From the IMG/VR virus record IMGVR_UViG_3300006917_000073, positions 1 to 36,708 of that record: DNA of 36,708 nt; one strand, 5' to 3'. How positions within the stretch are numbered: position 1 is the stretch's first letter; each line of letters starts with the position of its first letter. The notes beneath the pieces are model-generated. The model had not been told where the DNA came from, ran no database searches, and worked only from the letters and a program-made list of their open reading frames with translations. The position numbers and the translations under genes were made by a program. Source of the DNA: a virus. Shown in pieces: positions 4,177 to 18,692 of this stretch.

Positions 4177-4338
4177 TTACGCGTGCGTAGAGAAAAGAAC
4201 GCGGCCGGTGTAGCTCGCAGCAGCCCACGCGCTGCGCAGCTTCTCCAAGTCGCGTCGGGCCTCTTGGCGTTCACGGAACACCTTGGCCCATCGGTAACCG
4301 ATGTGGCGATGCCCAAACCGCTCCCAAAACTGCATCAT
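4177..4338 (-). CDS. First gene of the left operon, 53-aa basic helical protein
   Basis: Small leftward gene starting MMQFWERFGHRHIGYRWAKV, all charged/aromatic helix, then a tail of similar character. The ATG at 4338 (a second ATG follows at 4335) is preceded by GTGGAG. Its stop lies 7 bases before the exonuclease start. It is the first gene after the promoter at 4354-4381. The basic, aromatic composition suggests nucleic-acid contact, but no family is recognised. Confidence 0.6.
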   Translation of the reverse strand: MMQFWERFGHRHIGYRWAKVFRERQEARRDLEKLRSAWAAASYTGRVLFSTHA

Positions 4339-4353
4339 GCGTGAATTCTCCAC

Positions 4354-4381
4354 GTTATAATTCAGTATGTTACAGCGTCAA
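4354..4381 (-). promoter_or_regulatory. Sigma70-type promoter for the recombination operon
   Basis: Reading leftward: TTGACG (4381-4376), 16-base spacer, TATAAC (4359-4354), then GTGGAG and the ATG at 4338. Both hexamers are 5 of 6 matches to consensus. It sits between the 3' end of int and the first gene of the leftward operon, where a promoter is needed. Confidence 0.75.
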
Positions 4382-4398
4382 TGTCGCCAGGACCCGGC

Positions 4399-5739
4399 CT
4401 ACGCCGCGTCCTTTCGCTTCAATGGGTTAGCGATGCCCGGAGCAGCATTGTGATTCCGGTTGTTGTGGGTTCGAGTCCCATCGGCCACCCCACCATTTTC
4501 CCCTGAAGCCACAACGAGTTGCGCGATAGTGTCGGAATCTCGACACCCTTGGTAAACGTCGCTCACTCCCAAACCGCTCCCAAAATTGCGTCCGTCCTGC
4601 GTGTACCGGGCGGCGTTCCCCGCGAATTGCGCGGTGTAGTCCGCGGCGAGGTGGGCATAGCGTTGCACCATCGCCAGCGACGCCCAGCCGCCCAACTTCT
4701 GCAGCACCGGCAGCGGCGTTCCCGCCATGACGTGCCAGCTCGCCCACGTGTGCCGCAGGTCGTGCCAGGTGAAGTCCTCGATGCCGGCGCGCTCAAGCGC
4801 CTGCTGCCACGCAAGGCCGGCGGGCTCGGTGACGGGCCGCGGCTTCGCGTTCCACTCCGGCAGGCCGGCCGCCACGCGGCGCCTCGCGCGTAGCTTCGCC
4901 ATGTCGGACTCGCCCATAGGCCGCGCGTAGGCGAACACGAACACCGGATGTGCGTACATGGAGCATTCGCGCGCCTGGGTGAGCAAGGCGCAGGCTTCCG
5001 CACTCAGGGGGATGGGAATGGGCTGTCCTGCCTTGGCATCCTCGGGATGCACCCATGCCACCCGGCGCGCGAGATCCACATTCGACCAGCGCAGGCCCGT
5101 GACGTTGGACTTGCGCAGGCCGGTAAAGAGGGAGAAGGCGGCCATGCGGCGCAGGTGCAGCGGCAATTCCTCAAGCAGCCGCGCGGCTTCCTCGCGCGTG
5201 AGCCACCGCACCCGGCTCGGAGGCTGGCGCAGCCGGCGCACCGCGGGGAAGGGGATCTTGTGGAACCCGAAGAGGCCCGTGAGAAACGAGCGGTGCCGGT
5301 TGCGCGTGCTCGCAGACCACTCGCGTTCCTTCACGCCCCGGTCCAGAGCGCGCTCGATCATGTCGCCCGTGAGGTCGCGCAGTTTCTTGCCGGCGAAGTC
5401 GCGGTGGAGGAACCGGGCCTTGTCGCGGTCGTTTTCAATGTCCCGCTTACGCTCCAACTCCTTCTCGCGGAACCACGCCACCACGGCCTCGTCCCAGGTG
5501 AGCGGCGGCGCCTCGCCTAGTTCTTTCTGCCGCCACGCATCGCTCGCAATCTTGGCGCACCATTCCTGCGCCGCCTTGCGTTCGGTCGTGCCCGTAGAAC
5601 GTCGGATGCGTCGGCCGGAGGCATAGAAGTCGCACTCCCACTCGGCGCCGCGCCGATCACGATGGAGGCCGTATTGGTCGTCGCGCTTTCGATCTCCCCG
5701 TTGAGAAACGCCCTCGCCCTGTCGGGCGAGATCCGCCAC
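4399..5739 (-). CDS. int: Tyrosine site-specific integrase
   Basis: 446 aa from the GTG at 5739. An ATG at 5868 gives 489 aa, but the extra N-terminus is a shadow of the overlapping excisionase frame. The arm-binding-type strand G-A-E-W-E-C-D-F-Y-A-S-G-R-R comes first, then a SAM-like core-binding domain (about 75-165). The catalytic domain shows T-G-L-R (Arg 209), a Lys near 236, H-D-L-R-H (His 326, Arg 329), G-G-W (352) and R-Y-A-H-L with the nucleophile Tyr 361. The last 30 or so residues are encoded by the tRNA-His attP core, so the C-terminus would change on integration. Transcribed leftward from the control region at 5913-5942. Confidence 0.93.
   Translation of the reverse strand: MADLARQGEGVSQRGDRKRDDQYGLHRDRRGAEWECDFYASGRRIRRSTGTTERKAAQEWCAKIASDAWRQKELGEAPPLTWDEAVVAWFREKELERKRDIENDRDKARFLHRDFAGKKLRDLTGDMIERALDRGVKEREWSASTRNRHRSFLTGLFGFHKIPFPAVRRLRQPPSRVRWLTREEAARLLEELPLHLRRMAAFSLFTGLRKSNVTGLRWSNVDLARRVAWVHPEDAKAGQPIPIPLSAEACALLTQARECSMYAHPVFVFAYARPMGESDMAKLRARRRVAAGLPEWNAKPRPVTEPAGLAWQQALERAGIEDFTWHDLRHTWASWHVMAGTPLPVLQKLGGWASLAMVQRYAHLAADYTAQFAGNAARYTQDGRNFGSGLGVSDVYQGCRDSDTIAQLVVASGENGGVADGTRTHNNRNHNAAPGIANPLKRKDAA
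4447..4492 (+). other. attP: attP core: 3' half of tRNA-His(GUG)
   Basis: 46 bases on the plus strand read as the 3' part of a tRNA-His gene. They include the anticodon loop with GTG (within ATTGTGATT), the 3' anticodon-stem strand TCCGG, the T-arm GTGGGTTCGAGTCCCAT, acceptor strand CGGCCAC, discriminator C73 and an encoded CCA ending at 4492. The His-specific C73 and GTG anticodon make the identity firm. The 5' half (D-arm, 5' acceptor) is absent, so this is a recombination core and not a functional tRNA. It lies entirely inside the int reading frame, encoding a D-G-T-R-T-H-N-N-R-N-H-N tail. Integration would regenerate the host tRNA 3' end. Confidence 0.88.
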
Positions 5740-5855
5740 ACTCGGCCGATCCTCACGCCCACCTTCGGCGCCAGCTTCAACGCCGTCATGTAGTTCACGC
5801 CGAGGAAACGCGCGAACGCCCCTACGTCCCATGCCTGCTCTGTCGTTGTCGTCAT
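5517..5855 (-). CDS. Excisionase/AlpA-like HTH protein overlapping int
   Basis: 112-codon frame. The first 55 residues (D-V-G-A-F-A-R-F-L-G-V-N-Y, then V-G-V-R-I-G-R-V-W-R-I-S-P-D-R) form a MerR/AlpA-style winged helix-turn-helix typical of phage excisionases and DNA-binding recombination directionality factors. The remaining half runs across the integrase N-terminal region in another frame and looks like shadow sequence. The real gene therefore either has a long non-domain tail or is joined to int by a -1 frameshift. No canonical slippery heptamer is visible. The ATG at 5855 lies 13 bases inside an ATG of the int frame. Confidence 0.6.
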   Translation of the reverse strand: MTTTTEQAWDVGAFARFLGVNYMTALKLAPKVGVRIGRVWRISPDRARAFLNGEIESATTNTASIVIGAAPSGSATSMPPADASDVLRARPNARRRRNGAPRLRAMRGGRKN

Positions 5856-5912
5856 CTTCTCGCGTCATGGTTGGTCTGACCCTGCGAGCGCCCGTTAATT
5901 CAGTGGGAAAGA

Positions 5913-5942
5913 ATGGTAAGCGCGAAACGTACCGCGTGTCAA
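5913..5942 (-). promoter_or_regulatory. Putative leftward promoter for xis-int
   Basis: Leftward TTGACA (5942-5937, perfect -35), 18-base spacer, TACCAT (5918-5913, 4 of 6). It is followed by a leader of about 50 bases before the excisionase ATG. It overlaps one copy of the 18-bp GTAAACGCGAAACGGACC-like motif (5916-5933). Confidence 0.6.
5916..5933 (+). repeat. 18-bp motif, copy 1 (control region)
   Basis: GTAAGCGCGAAACGTACC. It differs from the consensus GTAAACGCGAAACGGACC at two bases. Overlaps the leftward xis-int promoter. Confidence 0.4.
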
Positions 5943-5957
5943 CTACTTGAGGCTATG

Positions 5958-5972
5958 TCAGGAAAACCCTGA
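5958..5972. promoter_or_regulatory. Inverted repeat, candidate operator 1
   Basis: TCAGG-aaaac-CCTGA: perfect 5-bp arms with a 5-bp spacer, located between the divergent int and regulator promoters. The size suits a dimeric HTH repressor. Binding is inferred only from position. Confidence 0.45.
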
Positions 5973-5985
5973 GTAAGTTTCACGA

Positions 5986-6000
5986 TTACATATAGTGTAA
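5986..6000. promoter_or_regulatory. Inverted repeat, candidate operator 2
   Basis: TTACA-tatag-TGTAA: perfect 5-bp arms around a 5-bp spacer, the same architecture as candidate operator 1 but a different sequence. It overlaps the -35 position of the rightward regulator promoter, so binding here could autorepress that gene. Confidence 0.5.
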
Positions 6001-6019
6001 CAATAGGTTAGGCTATACT
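5991..6019 (+). promoter_or_regulatory. Putative promoter of the double-HTH regulator, leaderless
   Basis: TATACT (6014-6019) is a good -10. The hexamer 17 bases upstream (TATAGT, 5991-5996) is a poor -35, which suggests an activator or weak basal activity. Transcription would start about 7 bases after the -10, at or next to the ATG at 6026. No Shine-Dalgarno fits between, so the message is probably leaderless, as for lambda cI from PRM. Confidence 0.5.
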
Positions 6020-6025
6020 TGTTTT

Positions 6026-6568
6026 ATGCAACGATCGCCACAACGTAAGCGTCCGGGGGCAAGGAAACGGAGGCACAAAATGCTTGAGCAAGCGGTATCC
6101 ACACCCACGGCGGCGCCGCGGAACTGGCGCACCTGGCCGGATTCGGTGGTGGAGCGCGCCATCAGGATTTGCGGGGGCTTCCCCGTGGATCTGCAGCATC
6201 GCATTTCCAGGCACCTGAAGCGCGACATTTCCAAGCAAACCGTGCATGGCTGGCGGCTGCGCGGGATCTTCCCGAAGGACATGATTTTTGCGGTCAACGA
6301 GGTCACGGGAATTCCCGTGGAAGAACTGCTCCTCGCCAAGCCCATCCACAAGAGCAAGCCCAGCTGCGTCGTGCGCGCAATTGCCAAGGCCGGAGGCACG
6401 GCATCGAAGTTCGCCGCCGAGCTCTCGCGTTCCTCGGGCCGGGACGTGACCCGGCAAATGGTGAGCAACTGGCTTGCCGCCTGCCAATTCCCGCGCGCCT
6501 ATGTCCTGGACATTCACTTGCTGACCAAACTCCCCATTGCCGAGCTCATGGAGAAGGACGAGCGGTAG
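6026..6568 (+). CDS. Phage transcriptional regulator with two tandem YdaS/Cro-like HTH domains
   Basis: 180 aa. After a basic 38-residue N-terminus come two copies of one domain, residues 40-101 and 113-174, aligning without gaps (offset 73, about 20 identities in 62). Shared positions include R-A-I, G-G, S-R, R-D, Q-x-V, W, F-P, T, P and E-L. Each has the layout of a YdaS/Cro-type helix-turn-helix, with V-x-x-W in the recognition region and a T-x-x-P-x-x-E-L tail. No S24/LexA protease domain is present, so SOS cleavage is unlikely. As the only rightward gene in the immunity region, it is probably the lysogeny repressor or the Cro-type switch protein. Its likely promoter overlaps an inverted repeat. 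Confidence 0.75.
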   Translation: MQRSPQRKRPGARKRRHKMLEQAVSTPTAAPRNWRTWPDSVVERAIRICGGFPVDLQHRISRHLKRDISKQTVHGWRLRGIFPKDMIFAVNEVTGIPVEELLLAKPIHKSKPSCVVRAIAKAGGTASKFAAELSRSSGRDVTRQMVSNWLAACQFPRAYVLDIHLLTKLPIAELMEKDER

Positions 6569-6570
6569 AC

Positions 6571-6672
6571 TGTTAGAATCTCGACACCCCGCCCTGGTCA
6601 GGTGGGGGAGTCCTGCCGGCGGGCGGTCCTGCCGTACAGGCAGCAAAGCCCGGCTTCGCGCCGGGCTTTGTC
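6571..6672 (+). ncRNA. Candidate small RNA between the regulator and the convergent operon
   Basis: An extended -10, TGTTAGAAT (6571-6579), follows the regulator stop by 2 bases. A transcript from about 6586 would fold into three hairpins. The first is CCCCGCC/GGTGGGG (6587-6593 with 6601-6607, one G-U pair). The second is CTGCC/GGCAG (6629-6633 with 6639-6643). The third is the terminator at 6645-6669. No -35 is evident, and the region may equally be the structured 3' UTR of the regulator message. Confidence 0.35.
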
Positions 6673-7195: not shown

Positions 7196-7389
7196 ACCAT
7201 GCGCTCCCAATGGAGTCGGCCGTCCTCGCCTTCGACGTAGCGGCCGACCTCGCCGCGGACCTCCATCCAGGCGGAGGCGCGGCTGTGCTCGGTCAGAATC
7301 ACGGCCTCGCCCTGCATCGGCCCATCGGCGCACTTGTGCGAGCGGGTGAAGAGGGCGAGGGCGCGAGTAAGAAAGCGGGAAAGTTTCAC
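7192..7389 (-). CDS. Hypothetical early protein, 65 aa
   Basis: GTG start at 7389 with AAGGAAG upstream, stop overlapping the TrfB-like gene's ATG as ATGA. A short basic N-terminal helix is followed by a small beta-rich part (E-A-V-I-L-T-E, then R-Y-V-E-G-E-D-G-R-L-H-W). The fold is probably tiny and all-beta. Nothing suggests an enzyme. Gene status rests on coupling to both neighbours and on normal composition. Confidence 0.6.
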   Translation of the reverse strand: MKLSRFLTRALALFTRSHKCADGPMQGEAVILTEHSRASAWMEVRGEVGRYVEGEDGRLHWERMV

Positions 7390-12658: not shown

Positions 12659-12856
12659 ATGTCGAATTTACCCAAGACCAGGCAGGACGCCATCAGGGGC
12701 GGAATCCCGAGGTACTTCAGCGGGGAACCCTGCAAGCGGGGGCACATGAGCGAGCGCTGGACGCTCTCTGGCGGGTGCCTTCAGTGCATCGAGGAGAACA
12801 AGGCGAAGGAGCGTGCTGAGTTCCAGGCGGCAAGGGAAGCGAGGGCCGGGGGATGA
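12659..12856 (+). CDS. Small zinc-binding (PCKRGH-CxxC) phage protein
   Basis: 65 aa. The motif Y-F-S-G-E-P-C-K-R-G-H followed by R-W-T-L-S-G-G-C-L-Q-C gives Cys-x3-His ... Cys-x2-Cys, a treble-clef-like zinc site related to the small HNH-type proteins carried by many phages. The HNH catalytic residues are not evident and the C-terminus is a charged helix. It probably binds DNA or RNA. The stop is 2 bases before the first iteron-like element, so this gene forms the left edge of the origin region. Confidence 0.7.
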   Translation: MSNLPKTRQDAIRGGIPRYFSGEPCKRGHMSERWTLSGGCLQCIEENKAKERAEFQAAREARAGG

Positions 12857-12858
12857 GT

Positions 12859-12990
12859 TTGTCCACACACGCGCGGGGTGTTTGTATTTATCTGCTTCTG
12901 CTTCTGTATGGGTGGACTTCCACACTTTCCACAGGTGTCCACCAGCGTCCACACCATGTCCACATCGGTCCACAAATGTCCACAGTGGAC
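12859..12990 (+). repeat. oriV: Iteron array, predicted replication origin
   Basis: Seven copies of an (n)TCCACA/C element begin at 12919, 12928, 12938, 12948, 12959, 12969 and 12979 (position of the T). Spacings are 9, 10, 10, 11, 10 and 10 bases, about one helical turn, with consensus TGTCCACA. An eighth outlying copy, TTGTCCACA (12859-12867), differs from the DnaA box TTATCCACA at one base. Between them lies a T-rich stretch (12880-12910) that could unwind. The array opens with a GTGGA/TCCAC inverted repeat (12912-12923) and closes with a perfect one, GTCCAC-a-GTGGAC (12978-12990). It lies immediately upstream of the initiator-like gene. Confidence 0.8.
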
Positions 12991-13001
12991 GAGGAATCCT
13001 G

Positions 13002-13730
13002 ATGTTCGCCAAACTTTTTGCGTCGATGTACGACGGCACGCTTTGCTCGCGCGGACCTTGGCAGGCTTTGGTCACGTTCCAGCAGATGCTCATTTTGTGC
13101 GACGCGCAAGGCGTCGTGGACATGACCGCGGAGGCGATCGCGCGCAGGACTTCGATCCCCGTGGACGTGATTAAGACCGGCATCGAGGCGCTTGAGCAGC
13201 CGGACCCGGACAGCAGAAGCCCGGACGATGATGGCAGGCGCATCCGAAGGTTGGACGAGCACCGCGCCTGGGGCTGGCAGGTGGTGAACCACGCCAAGTA
13301 CCGGGACATGCGCTCAAACGAGGACCGAAGGGAGTATTTCCGCAACTACAAGCGCGAGCAGCGGGCAAGGCAGGGGAAATCCCACAGTGGGGGCACTGTG
13401 GGGCGCGGGGAGAAGAAGGAGCGAGGAGGTGGTGAATCGCCCGAGGGCTTCGACGCCTTCTGGTCCGCCTACCCGAAGAAAGTCGCCAAGCCGGCCGCGC
13501 AACGCGCGTTCAAGGCGCTCGGCCTGAAGAACGGAGACTTGGAGCGCGTGCTTTCCGCGGTGCGCTCGCAGGCCGAAAGCGAGGACTGGACGAAGGACGG
13601 GGGGCGGTTCATCCCGCATCCGGCGACGTGGCTGAACCAGCGCCGGTTCGAGGACCAGGCGCCGCAGGTGCCGAGGGTCTACAAGCCCGGCGACCGGCTG
13701 CCATCCGGCGAGTACAAGGTGGCGATATGA
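13002..13730 (+). CDS. Replication initiator-like protein
   Basis: 242 aa. N-terminal 100 residues: a helical, winged-helix-like domain (M-F-A-K-L-F-A-S-M-Y, Q-G-V-V-D-M-T-A-E-A-I-A-R-R-T, then V-I-K-T-G-I-E-A-L), the layout of phage O-type replication proteins. A Gly/Lys/Arg-rich linker (about 125-155) follows. The C-terminal domain F-D-A-F-W-S-A-Y-P-K-K-V-A-K ... F-I-P-H-P-A-T-W-L-N-Q-R-R-F-E-D is a standard module in phage primosomal/loader proteins. The ATG at 13002 has GAGGAA upstream, and the frame before it is the iteron array. It probably binds the iterons and loads the helicase encoded next (4-base overlap). Confidence 0.8.
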   Translation: MFAKLFASMYDGTLCSRGPWQALVTFQQMLILCDAQGVVDMTAEAIARRTSIPVDVIKTGIEALEQPDPDSRSPDDDGRRIRRLDEHRAWGWQVVNHAKYRDMRSNEDRREYFRNYKREQRARQGKSHSGGTVGRGEKKERGGGESPEGFDAFWSAYPKKVAKPAAQRAFKALGLKNGDLERVLSAVRSQAESEDWTKDGGRFIPHPATWLNQRRFEDQAPQVPRVYKPGDRLPSGEYKVAI

Positions 13731-14701
13731 GCGACCAGGGCGATCCGATCCCGGACGACCTTGAGCGCCAGGCGACGTTGCTCATGGACGCCCCCATGGT
13801 CGGGGTGGGAGCGGAAGCGTTCCTGCCGAGGATCTTTGACCTTTGGGCGAAGGGCTTGCCGCCGGGGACAAGGACCGGCTGGCAGAACGTGGACGAACTC
13901 TACACCGTGGCGCCGGGGCAGTTGACGATCGTGACCGGGTGGCCGGGCTCAGGGAAGTCGGAATGGCTCGATGCCCTGCTGCTCAACATCGCAAGGCAGG
14001 ACTGGCGGATATGCCTGCATTCCCCGGAGAACCGTCCAGAGGAGATTCACGTCGTCAAGTACCTCGAGAAGTTCACCGGCAAGCCGTTCGGTGAGGGCGT
14101 GAACGAACGCCTGACCGAAAGCGAAGTCGCGGAGGCGGTGCACTGCATCAAGGATTGGTTCGGGTTCCTGGTGGCCTCCGCCGACGCGGAGCAAAGCACG
14201 TTCAACATCGAGCAGATCATGGGCGCCGCGGAGCTGTGGTTTCGCATGAAAGGCTACTGGCGAAAGAAGCCCTGCGGGCTGGTGATCGACCCGTGGAACG
14301 AACTCGACCACCAGCGCCCGAGTCATTGGTCGGAAACCGAGTACGTGAGCGCGACACTCACCGCGCTGCGGAGCTGGGCAAGGACGCATGGGGTGCACGT
14401 GTGGGTCGTGGCGCATCCGCAGAAACTTCCGCGCGACCAGAAGGGCGAACTGCCCGTGCCGCGGCCGGACACGATTTCGGGCTCGCAGCATTGGTGGAAC
14501 AAGGCCGACAACTGCGTGACGGTGTGGCGAGACTACGACAACCGCGACGCGCCCGTGCAGGTGCACGTGCAGAAAGTGCGGTTCAAGCACATCGGCAAGA
14601 TCGGCATGGCGAAACTCGACTATGACCGCGTGACCGGCCAGTACCGGATGCACCGGGAACCGGGCGAATACTACGGACCAAGGGAGGTGCGGCGTGCGTA
14701 A
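13727..14701 (+). CDS. Twinkle/DnaB-type replicative helicase
   Basis: 324 aa RecA-fold helicase without a primase half. Walker A is G-W-P-G-S-G-K-S (71-78). S-P-E-N follows motif Ia. Walker B is L-V-I-D-P-W-N-E-L (about 184-192), then R-P-S-H-W-S-E-T-E-Y and V-A-H-P-Q-K (motif III/IV area), ending with I-S-G-S-Q-H-W-W-N-K-A-D and a V-H-V-Q-K-V-R-F-K arginine-finger/sensor part. This suite is typical of short phage Twinkle-like DnaB proteins. It unwinds the replication fork as a hexamer. The ATG overlaps the initiator stop as ATGA. Confidence 0.9.
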   Translation: MSDQGDPIPDDLERQATLLMDAPMVGVGAEAFLPRIFDLWAKGLPPGTRTGWQNVDELYTVAPGQLTIVTGWPGSGKSEWLDALLLNIARQDWRICLHSPENRPEEIHVVKYLEKFTGKPFGEGVNERLTESEVAEAVHCIKDWFGFLVASADAEQSTFNIEQIMGAAELWFRMKGYWRKKPCGLVIDPWNELDHQRPSHWSETEYVSATLTALRSWARTHGVHVWVVAHPQKLPRDQKGELPVPRPDTISGSQHWWNKADNCVTVWRDYDNRDAPVQVHVQKVRFKHIGKIGMAKLDYDRVTGQYRMHREPGEYYGPREVRRA

Positions 14702-16913: not shown

Positions 16914-18692
16914 GTGGGGCAGCCTACAGCCTGGAACAAGACCACCGACTTCAGCGAATACGCAACGGCGCACCCGTCCGCGCCGTTCGCCCCGGCGGAA
17001 CTTGACACCGAGCTCGACAACGCCCGCACCACGGTCGGGCAACTCCGCACCAACATTGCGCTCATCCAGCGCGACGACGGCGAACTGGCAAACGAGTCCG
17101 TGGGGATCGACCAGCTTGCGGACGAAACGCTGGCCCTTTTCACGCTTGGCGAAGCGGACATCATCGGCCCTTGGGCGACCGCGACGGCCTACACTGTCGG
17201 CAACGTGGTGGGGCAAGGTGGCGTGGCCTACGTCTGCGTCACGGCGCACACCTCGGGCACCTTCAACACCGACCTTTCCGCCGGCAAGTGGGCGGCGATG
17301 GGCGCCACCACCTCGAGCCTTGCGGCCACGGCGATCACGTTCTCCGCAGCCGGCACCGTTTCCGCGGCCACCGTACAGGCTGCGATTGAGGAACTGGACA
17401 CCGAGAAGGCGAAGGTGGCCGGCGACTCCTCGCAGACCTTCTCCGTGTCGGCGGCAACCTCTGCTGCGCACGCTGTCACGATGCGCCAGATCCAGCGCAA
17501 CACGCTGCTTCACGCCGTCGCGGGCGGCAGCGCGGATGCTCTGACGGCGACAATTGCGTCAGGCGAAACTGCGCTTGTGGACGGGATGCGGGTGCTGATC
17601 GAGGCCGCAGCATCGAACGCAACCACAGCGCCGACGCTAAACCTGACCCTCGGCTCAACCGCCACCGGGGCAAAGACGATCAAGAAGGGCTCTGCGAATG
17701 CGCTGCTGGCCGGCGACATCGAAGGCGCCGGCATGAAGCTCGACCTTGCATGGGACTCCGATGGCGACTGCTGGCTGCTGCTCAATCCGGCGAACCCCGT
17801 GGCGAGCGCGGCGGCGAGCATCAACGACCTGACCGAACTGCTGCAGCCCAATCGCACGAACGACTACGGCGAGGTCTATTCATCCTCGGCAGGGGCGTCG
17901 CGCAAGGTCGCTCTGCAGAACTACCCACTGCCACGGTCCTACCTTGCGGGCGGAACGCTGTCCAACAACGGAAGCGATGCGACGAACGACATCGACATCG
18001 CAGCCGGCGCGTGCCGGGATTCCACGGACACGGTGAACATCCGCTGGTCATCCTTCACCGGCAAGCAACTGGACGCCTCATGGGCGGAGGGCAGCGCGGC
18101 CGGGATGCGCGACACCGGCTCCATCGCCAACGGAACATGGCACATCTACGCCATCCTCAAGGACTCCGACAACAGCGCGCAAATCCTGGCGTCCACGTCG
18201 GCATCGAGCCCGACCATGCCAAGCGGGTACACGTACTTCCGCCGCATTGGGTCCATTTTGCGAGAGGGCGGGGCGATTGTCGGGTTCCTGCAGGACGGCG
18301 ACGATTTCTACAGAAAATCACCGATCCAGGATGTCTCAACCACCGGCTTTGCCGCCGGAACAAGCGCGGTGTCTCGAACCTTGAGCGTGCCTACTGGCAT
18401 TCGAGTCAAAGCCTATATGTCAGTGGCGCTTGGAACGCAGACGGCGGCGATGATCTACATGCTCCTGTCGGACCTTTCGGCAACCGATGTGGCTCCGAGC
18501 TCAACAAACTTCACGCTGTCTGCTGGATATGGCGCGGCGAGTGGCTCTACGGACGATCAGGTTGGCGCGCAGTGCTCTGTGTGGACGAGCACAGGCGCGC
18601 AAATCAGGTCGCGCATGGGTGCCAACGATGCGCAAGACAAACTGTACATCAACACTCTCGGCTGGATGGATCGCCGCGGGCGCGACGCATGA
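16914..18692 (+). CDS. Tail fibre / receptor-binding protein
   Basis: 592 aa, GTG start. Modular and typical of podovirus tail fibres. The N-terminal 100 residues (W-N-K-T-T-D-F-S-E-Y ... A-E-L-D-T-E-L-D-N) form an attachment-type helix/turn part. Next is a carbohydrate-module-like part with G-P-W-A-T-A-T-A-Y-T-V-G-N-V-V ... H-T-S-G-T-F-N-T-D-L-S-A-G-K-W-A-A (about 84-125). Ala/Thr/Ser-rich beta repeats follow, then a sandwich-like C-terminus with G-T-W-H-I-Y-A-I-L-K-D and I-G-W-M-D-like closing strands. It probably binds the host surface. No variable-repeat/retroelement signature is present. Placed before the lysis genes, away from the structural block. Confidence 0.8.
   Translation: MGQPTAWNKTTDFSEYATAHPSAPFAPAELDTELDNARTTVGQLRTNIALIQRDDGELANESVGIDQLADETLALFTLGEADIIGPWATATAYTVGNVVGQGGVAYVCVTAHTSGTFNTDLSAGKWAAMGATTSSLAATAITFSAAGTVSAATVQAAIEELDTEKAKVAGDSSQTFSVSAATSAAHAVTMRQIQRNTLLHAVAGGSADALTATIASGETALVDGMRVLIEAAASNATTAPTLNLTLGSTATGAKTIKKGSANALLAGDIEGAGMKLDLAWDSDGDCWLLLNPANPVASAAASINDLTELLQPNRTNDYGEVYSSSAGASRKVALQNYPLPRSYLAGGTLSNNGSDATNDIDIAAGACRDSTDTVNIRWSSFTGKQLDASWAEGSAAGMRDTGSIANGTWHIYAILKDSDNSAQILASTSASSPTMPSGYTYFRRIGSILREGGAIVGFLQDGDDFYRKSPIQDVSTTGFAAGTSAVSRTLSVPTGIRVKAYMSVALGTQTAAMIYMLLSDLSATDVAPSSTNFTLSAGYGAASGSTDDQVGAQCSVWTSTGAQIRSRMGANDAQDKLYINTLGWMDRRGRDA

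Follow-up and report, generated by a model that had tools for sequence, protein, structure and literature searches.

Iteron plasmids of the RepE/RepA type and phage P4, with its type I iterons, carry short direct repeats beside an unwinding region; these repeats are bound by the initiator, are often autoregulatory and, in plasmids, are usually 17–22 bp long. In lambda and the Stx phages, the iterons and an AT-rich unwinding region lie in the middle of the O gene, at the boundary between DNA binding and helicase loading, and the palindromic iterons, four in lambda and six in the Stx phages, measure ∼18–20 bp (PMC7466680). The origin oriL of phage SPP1 lies within gene 38 and comprises an AT-rich DUE and direct repeats to which the SPP1 initiator binds, and a second origin is located elsewhere, ∼13 kb away (PMC6316719). 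Pseudomonas phage MD8 carries repeats inside an O-like initiator gene, with no phasing, tract or motif turnover described in the relevant passages (PMC8508860).

The window, i.e., the whole stretch of 36,708 nucleotides of the IMG/VR virus record IMGVR_UViG_3300006917_000073, belongs to a temperate phage, for which no nucleotide similarity to known phages was found. Its left part encodes on the minus strand an integrase, RecT, a YqaJ nuclease and a DNA methyltransferase, and genes for the terminase, a portal-like protein and the major head protein are present to the right of the replication genes. Direct repeats also occur around the integrase gene, namely, CCCAAACCGCTCCCAAAA(C/T)TGC at 4312 and 4568 and AATCTCGACACCC at about 4536 and 6577; these (4312–4592 and 4521–6589) are possibly attachment-site or integrase arm sites. 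An ORF of 592 aa (16914–18692) with a CBM_5_12 carbohydrate-binding module at aa 87–116 is flanked by a VRR-NUC nuclease gene and by the packaging genes.

The sequence-only reading of the window had described an array of TCCAC-like repeats at 9–11 bp spacing in front of the initiator gene, with inverted repeats at both ends and a T-rich stretch before it, and all of these features were recovered (Table 1). The T of TCCAC falls at positions 12919, 12928, 12938, 12948, 12959, 12969 and 12979 of the plus strand, which gives spacings of 9, 10, 10, 11, 10 and 10 (mean 10.0 bp). Seven copies of TCCAC within 75 bp of one strand are beyond simulated chance: when the whole window was simulated 300 times with a third-order Markov model, the maximum was four; for [GT]TCCACA, six copies were observed against a simulated maximum of two. 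The inverted repeats at 12912–12923 (GTGGACTTCCAC) and 12978–12990 (GTCCACAGTGGAC) are exact, and both represent head-to-head iterons, with inverted GTCCAC at 12912–12917 and 12985–12990. The array is contained in a 145-bp gap (12857–13001) between a small gene (12659–12856) and the start codon of the initiator gene at 13002, and ends 11 bp before this codon. Rfam and tRNA searches gave no match, and a scan of the region for sigma-70 promoters and terminators found nothing, such promoter scans being weak. The switch in GC skew expected at the array by the earlier reading was absent, the cumulative minimum being at 7326, 5.6 kb away; the skew follows gene orientation in this phage and was set aside as a weak, uninformative origin marker.

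Table 1. Coordinates of the putative origin module and of the adjoining replication genes in the window.
Feature	Position	Strand	Remark
Outlying TTGTCCACA; probably a further iteron	12859..12867	+	
GC-poor hexanucleotide tract CATACAGAAGCAGAAGCAGATAAATACAAAC; probable unwinding element	12879..12910	-	33% GC, junction-profile match
Inverted iteron GTCCACC	12911..12917	-	Directly adjoins the tract; same as the GTNNRCC "last iteron" at the junction of relatives
Seven-unit iteron array, KTCCAC(A/C)	12919..12984	+	One unit per ∼10 bp
Inverted iteron GTCCAC	12985..12990	-	Initiator-proximal array end; head-to-head with the unit at 12979
242-aa phage replication initiator (P0001)	13002..13730	+	N-terminal domain aa 1–127, short array-free linker, C-terminal phrog_270-type domain aa about 150–223
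DnaB/Twinkle-like ATPase, presumed replicative helicase	13727..14701	+	Next gene after the initiator

The 242-aa initiator had no Pfam match, and no sequence homology to lambda O was found. Its C-terminal domain matches phrog_270, which is of the "replication initiation" type, and searches of a viral library returned phage replisome organizers and DUF1376 proteins. Structure prediction with AlphaFold showed a confident, helical, winged-helix-like N-terminal domain (aa 1–127) ending in a long helix, after which come a linker predicted with low confidence and a small C-terminal domain. A Foldseek search of the PDB gave no match at E ≤ 0.001; only weak winged-helix matches were present (CodY, E 0.2), with RepE54 and pPS10 RepA at E about 1 only, and when PDB sequences were searched with the family profile, only chance-like matches resulted. 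The N-terminal domain is 71% identical to that of the closest relative, L002 (5001–5699), and the C-terminal domains of the two proteins are unrelated. Across the family, the C-terminal parts match many phrogs, including DnaD-like loaders, Phg_2220_C and O-like proteins (the O-like phrog being matched by 2 of 48 relatives), so that the loader domains joined to the N-terminal domain are exchangeable. The array accompanies such differing C-terminal domains, which ties it to the N-terminal domain.

Relatives were gathered by alignment of the N-terminal domain, which yielded 84 loci (80 viral and 4 from metagenome-assembled genomes), mostly uncultured metagenomic contigs. An array was scored when a 7-mer with at most one mismatch occurred in at least three copies at a spacing of 9–11. 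By this measure, a phased array was present in the initiator linker of 41 of the 57 non-redundant loci, the window being counted among these. Each of two control coding stretches gave 0/57, and shuffled linkers averaged 0.6; about a quarter of the relatives had no scorable array. In most of the relatives, the array is positioned inside the initiator gene, ∼360–450 bp past its start, in the linker that follows the N-terminal domain, and many relatives contain a smaller upstream array besides. When spacings of 7–13 were allowed, 10 was the commonest (72), followed by 9 (38). Autocorrelation peaked at lags 10, 20 and 30 for the array and at lags 6, 12 and 18 for the tract described below. As neither 10 nor 20 is a multiple of three, the repeat is one of DNA and not of amino acids, and selection acts on DNA. 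The helical phasing is thus conserved in related phages, and the comparative evidence supports well the assignment of the iteron array to the phage initiator.

While the spacing is kept, the iteron words differ from phage to phage, e.g., GTCAACA, GTTAGCA, GTAAACA, GTCGACA, GTCGCAA, GTCCGCA and GTTCAAC, and 28 distinct 7-mers were counted in 42 non-redundant loci by a script that required an initial GT. The word GTCCACA is confined to the window and a distant relative, L169, among these loci. At unchanged spacing, GTAAACA, GTCGACA, GTAAACC, GTCAACA, GTTAGCA, GTCCGCA, GTTAGCC or GTAACGG is found in the 11 nearest relatives whose array could be scored. Phages with more similar N-terminal domains have more similar motifs; the correlation is weak but significant (Mantel r 0.27, p 0.0002), and shared ancestry alone could yield it. 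The linker motif of a phage also tends to recur upstream of its own ATG, the value for shared 8-mers being 2.62 for the own upstream region and 0.85 for those of other loci (p ≤ 1e-4; control regions 0.80–0.97). The same motif at two sites of one genome is the trace to be expected of one DNA-binding protein with two targets and a drifting specificity.

Many linkers show a tract of hexanucleotide periodicity directly after the last iteron (GTNNRCC), e.g., (GCAGAA)n or (N)ATAGCAGAAGCAGAAGCAGA; the tract encodes AEAE, THTH or TDTD and varies in sequence among the relatives. The T-rich stretch of the window is such a tract read from the opposite strand, and junction and tract read GTCCACC-CATACAGAAGCAGAAGCAGATAAA from 12917 to 12887 on the minus strand. 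A junction profile was built from 14 linkers, with the window and loci L162 and L212 excluded, and was scanned against 718 kb (85 loci, some of which, other than these three, had also trained the profile). Twenty-three matches were obtained: 21 in initiator linkers on the plus strand, two upstream of the initiator gene (window and L212) and none elsewhere. The match at 12920–12887 (minus strand, E = 0.0018) is the only one in the window, and CAGAAGCAGAAGCAG had no second match within two mismatches anywhere in it. As against ∼65% GC in the genome as a whole, the tract belongs to the 0.18% of 30-base windows that are equally GC-poor, and the 40-bp duplex energy at this site is -50.0 compared with a mean of -62.7 (sd 3.8). 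An easily melted AT-rich region therefore adjoins the repeats, as in origins of the lambda/SPP1 type. The tract is non-coding in the window, which argues for its selection as DNA.

A scan of IMG/VR with the junction as a 21-letter degenerate DNA pattern, without protein information, retrieved 19 loci. Inspection by eye assigned at least 13 of these to linkers of initiator-like ORFs, four to an array or tract with a broken or short ORF and two to chance-like matches. They include N-terminal families missed by the protein search, suggesting that the junction signature is wider than this initiator family; for example, L241–L258 comprise initiators of other N-terminal families beginning MYGKHFASMYTGSMVGAG... 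and MSETYSKLFSS.... A scan of IMG/VR for three copies of GTCCAC matched at least 120 stretches and was judged non-specific. Three named phages, Pseudomonas phage PfAn1 (L238), Brevibacterium phage Rousseau (L235) and Pontimonas phage phiPsal1 (L231), share the C-terminal domain of the window initiator and have other N-terminal domains. Apparent linker repeats were seen in PfAn1 (GTCAACGAAACGTCAACC-ATACAGATACAGATACAGAT, just before locus position 1201), in Rousseau (ATCGCATG units, then GGCAGAGACAGAGACAGAGACA) and in phiPsal1 (TTCCACTGTGGA units).

The position upstream of the initiator gene, as given by the earlier reading, is correct for the window and is not the normal one, because the main array is present inside the initiator gene in most relatives. 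No array was found in the linker of the window initiator itself, and most of the window iterons are oriented opposite to the tract-side iteron, unlike in most linkers of the relatives. The loss of the repeats in relatives with the same initiator, named beforehand as evidence against the array, is seen in L002 as far as the upstream region is concerned, where at most one GTAAACG is present; yet its gene contains four copies of GTAAACA at spacings of 11, 10 and 9. A firm parallel to the window is L212, which lacks both the linker array and the C-terminal domain and has the module inverted in the upstream intergenic gap (junction profile on the minus strand, E = 0.0011). The L212 initiator (5001–5471) consists of the N-terminal domain only (156 aa), and a convergent gene on the other strand (5477–6193) encodes a loader-like AAA+ ATPase. 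A similar upstream inverted layout was noticed by eye in L162, where the junction profile is weak (E = 1.9), and L212 alone was counted. Supported branches of the tree separate the window from L212; hence, upstream placement arose at least twice, or it is old and was repeatedly lost. Expansion of the small upstream array present in many relatives could be one route for the move of the module.

An array that ends so close to a start codon could be an operator only, through which the initiator represses itself, with the origin elsewhere in the genome, and the smaller upstream arrays that many relatives add to the linker array fit such a role for the upstream copy. This reading is unlikely, since in the window it is the upstream array that is accompanied by the origin-like junction and the GC-poor tract, the linker lacks an array, and the phage genome has no further array or tract; the region also yielded no sigma-70-like promoter, weak as such scans are. 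It is scarcely credible that the repeats are functionless products of slippage or low-complexity linker sequence. Simple tri- and hexanucleotide tracts do arise in this way, and the tract sequence varies between relatives, but the spacers between iterons have diverged while the motif and its 10-bp phase were kept, and neither the agreement of the motif across ∼400 bp within a genome, nor the specificity of the junction, nor upstream placement in two separate supported clades would be expected of slippage.

The sequence-only reading had further proposed that the initiator and host DnaA compete or cooperate on the same repeats, and a cluster of DnaA boxes, bound by DnaA either by itself or as a competitor of the phage initiator, would account for the resemblance of TGTCCACA to a DnaA box and for the single mismatch between TTGTCCACA at 12859 and TTATCCACA. 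The array units, on the other hand, have at least two mismatches to TTATCCACA and likewise do not fit the DnaA box TTATNCACA (at least two mismatches), and head-to-tail spacing at 10 bp is not the usual arrangement in oriC. The identity of the outlying element as a DnaA box was not borne out either, as two further sites in the window are also one mismatch away. The relatives keep the geometry with motifs that do not resemble DnaA boxes, and the motif agrees between two sites of one phage, so that it follows a phage protein. As the motif drifts freely and looks like a DnaA box only in the window and L169, sharing with DnaA is not supported; a DnaA cluster is highly improbable, and the likeness of the array motif to DnaA sites is very probably a coincidence of sequence.

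Judging from the sequence comparisons, positions 12859–12990 are most probably the initiator-binding part of a replication origin, with the tract at 12879–12910 as its unwinding element, and the layout is best read as an origin of the lambda/SPP1 type, i.e., iterons and unwinding tract, lying before the gene and not within it. Binding by the N-terminal domain of the initiator would occur at one iteron per helical turn, so that consecutive protein copies would be aligned on nearly the same side of the double helix. The resulting complex may melt the neighboring tract, and the C-terminal domain could then recruit the DnaB-like helicase, the product of the following gene. With only 11 bp between the array and the start codon, bound initiator should also repress its own expression. 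In most relatives, the module is ordered as array, GTNNRCC and tract in the linker between the two domains of the initiator; in the window, it is intergenic, with junction and tract inverted and the linker copy absent. Points that count against the origin reading are the relatives without a scorable array, the distant GC-skew minimum, the orientation of most window iterons relative to the tract-side unit and the variability of the tract sequence.

Clustering of repeats at or in the initiator gene, a trait of lambda/SPP1-type origins, was observed here, and a putative origin inside the initiator coding sequence is found in most relatives and not in the window, where it occupies the gap at 12857–13001. 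Most relatives share with lambda and the Stx phages the arrangement of iterons and unwinding region within the gene; the differences are units of ∼7 bp at a 10-bp pitch, the hexanucleotide tract, the fixed GTNNRCC junction and, in the window, the upstream, inverted placement. The likeness to SPP1 consists of initiator repeats and an AT-rich DUE in the initiator gene together with a second site; the initiator family and the repeats differ, and the second origin of SPP1 is not directly upstream of the gene. Iterons of 17–22 bp with an initiator of the RepE/RepA type were not found, the period in the window being 10 bp. P4, whose iterons are similar in size to the window units, has an unrelated primase-helicase as its initiator. 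Searches of the open-licence literature yielded no description of 10-bp-phased iterons together with a hexanucleotide tract in phage initiator linkers. Lambda, the Stx phages and SPP1 have the nearest known kinds of origin, and the locus differs from these in its short units at one helical turn, rapid motif turnover, a tract with a fixed junction and an inverted position outside the gene.

Tentatively, these features may define a widespread phage origin cassette that combines iterons repeated at each helical turn with a fixed GTNNRCC junction and a hexanucleotide tract; the tract might be a single-strand element with sequence specificity, similar to the DnaA-trio. In such a cassette, the geometry would be fixed, the iteron sequence would turn over rapidly together with the DNA-binding domain of the initiator, and the whole could move out of the gene and function, inverted, at an upstream position. 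Since initiator genes can be retrieved from IMG/VR with nothing more than a 21-letter degenerate pattern, origins in uncultured phages may be found from sequence only. The constant geometry of the arrays with varying recognition sequences provides a natural series from which initiator specificity could be decoded, and, as the putative origin usually forms part of a coding linker, its existence outside the gene would allow constraint at the DNA level to be separated from that at the protein level.
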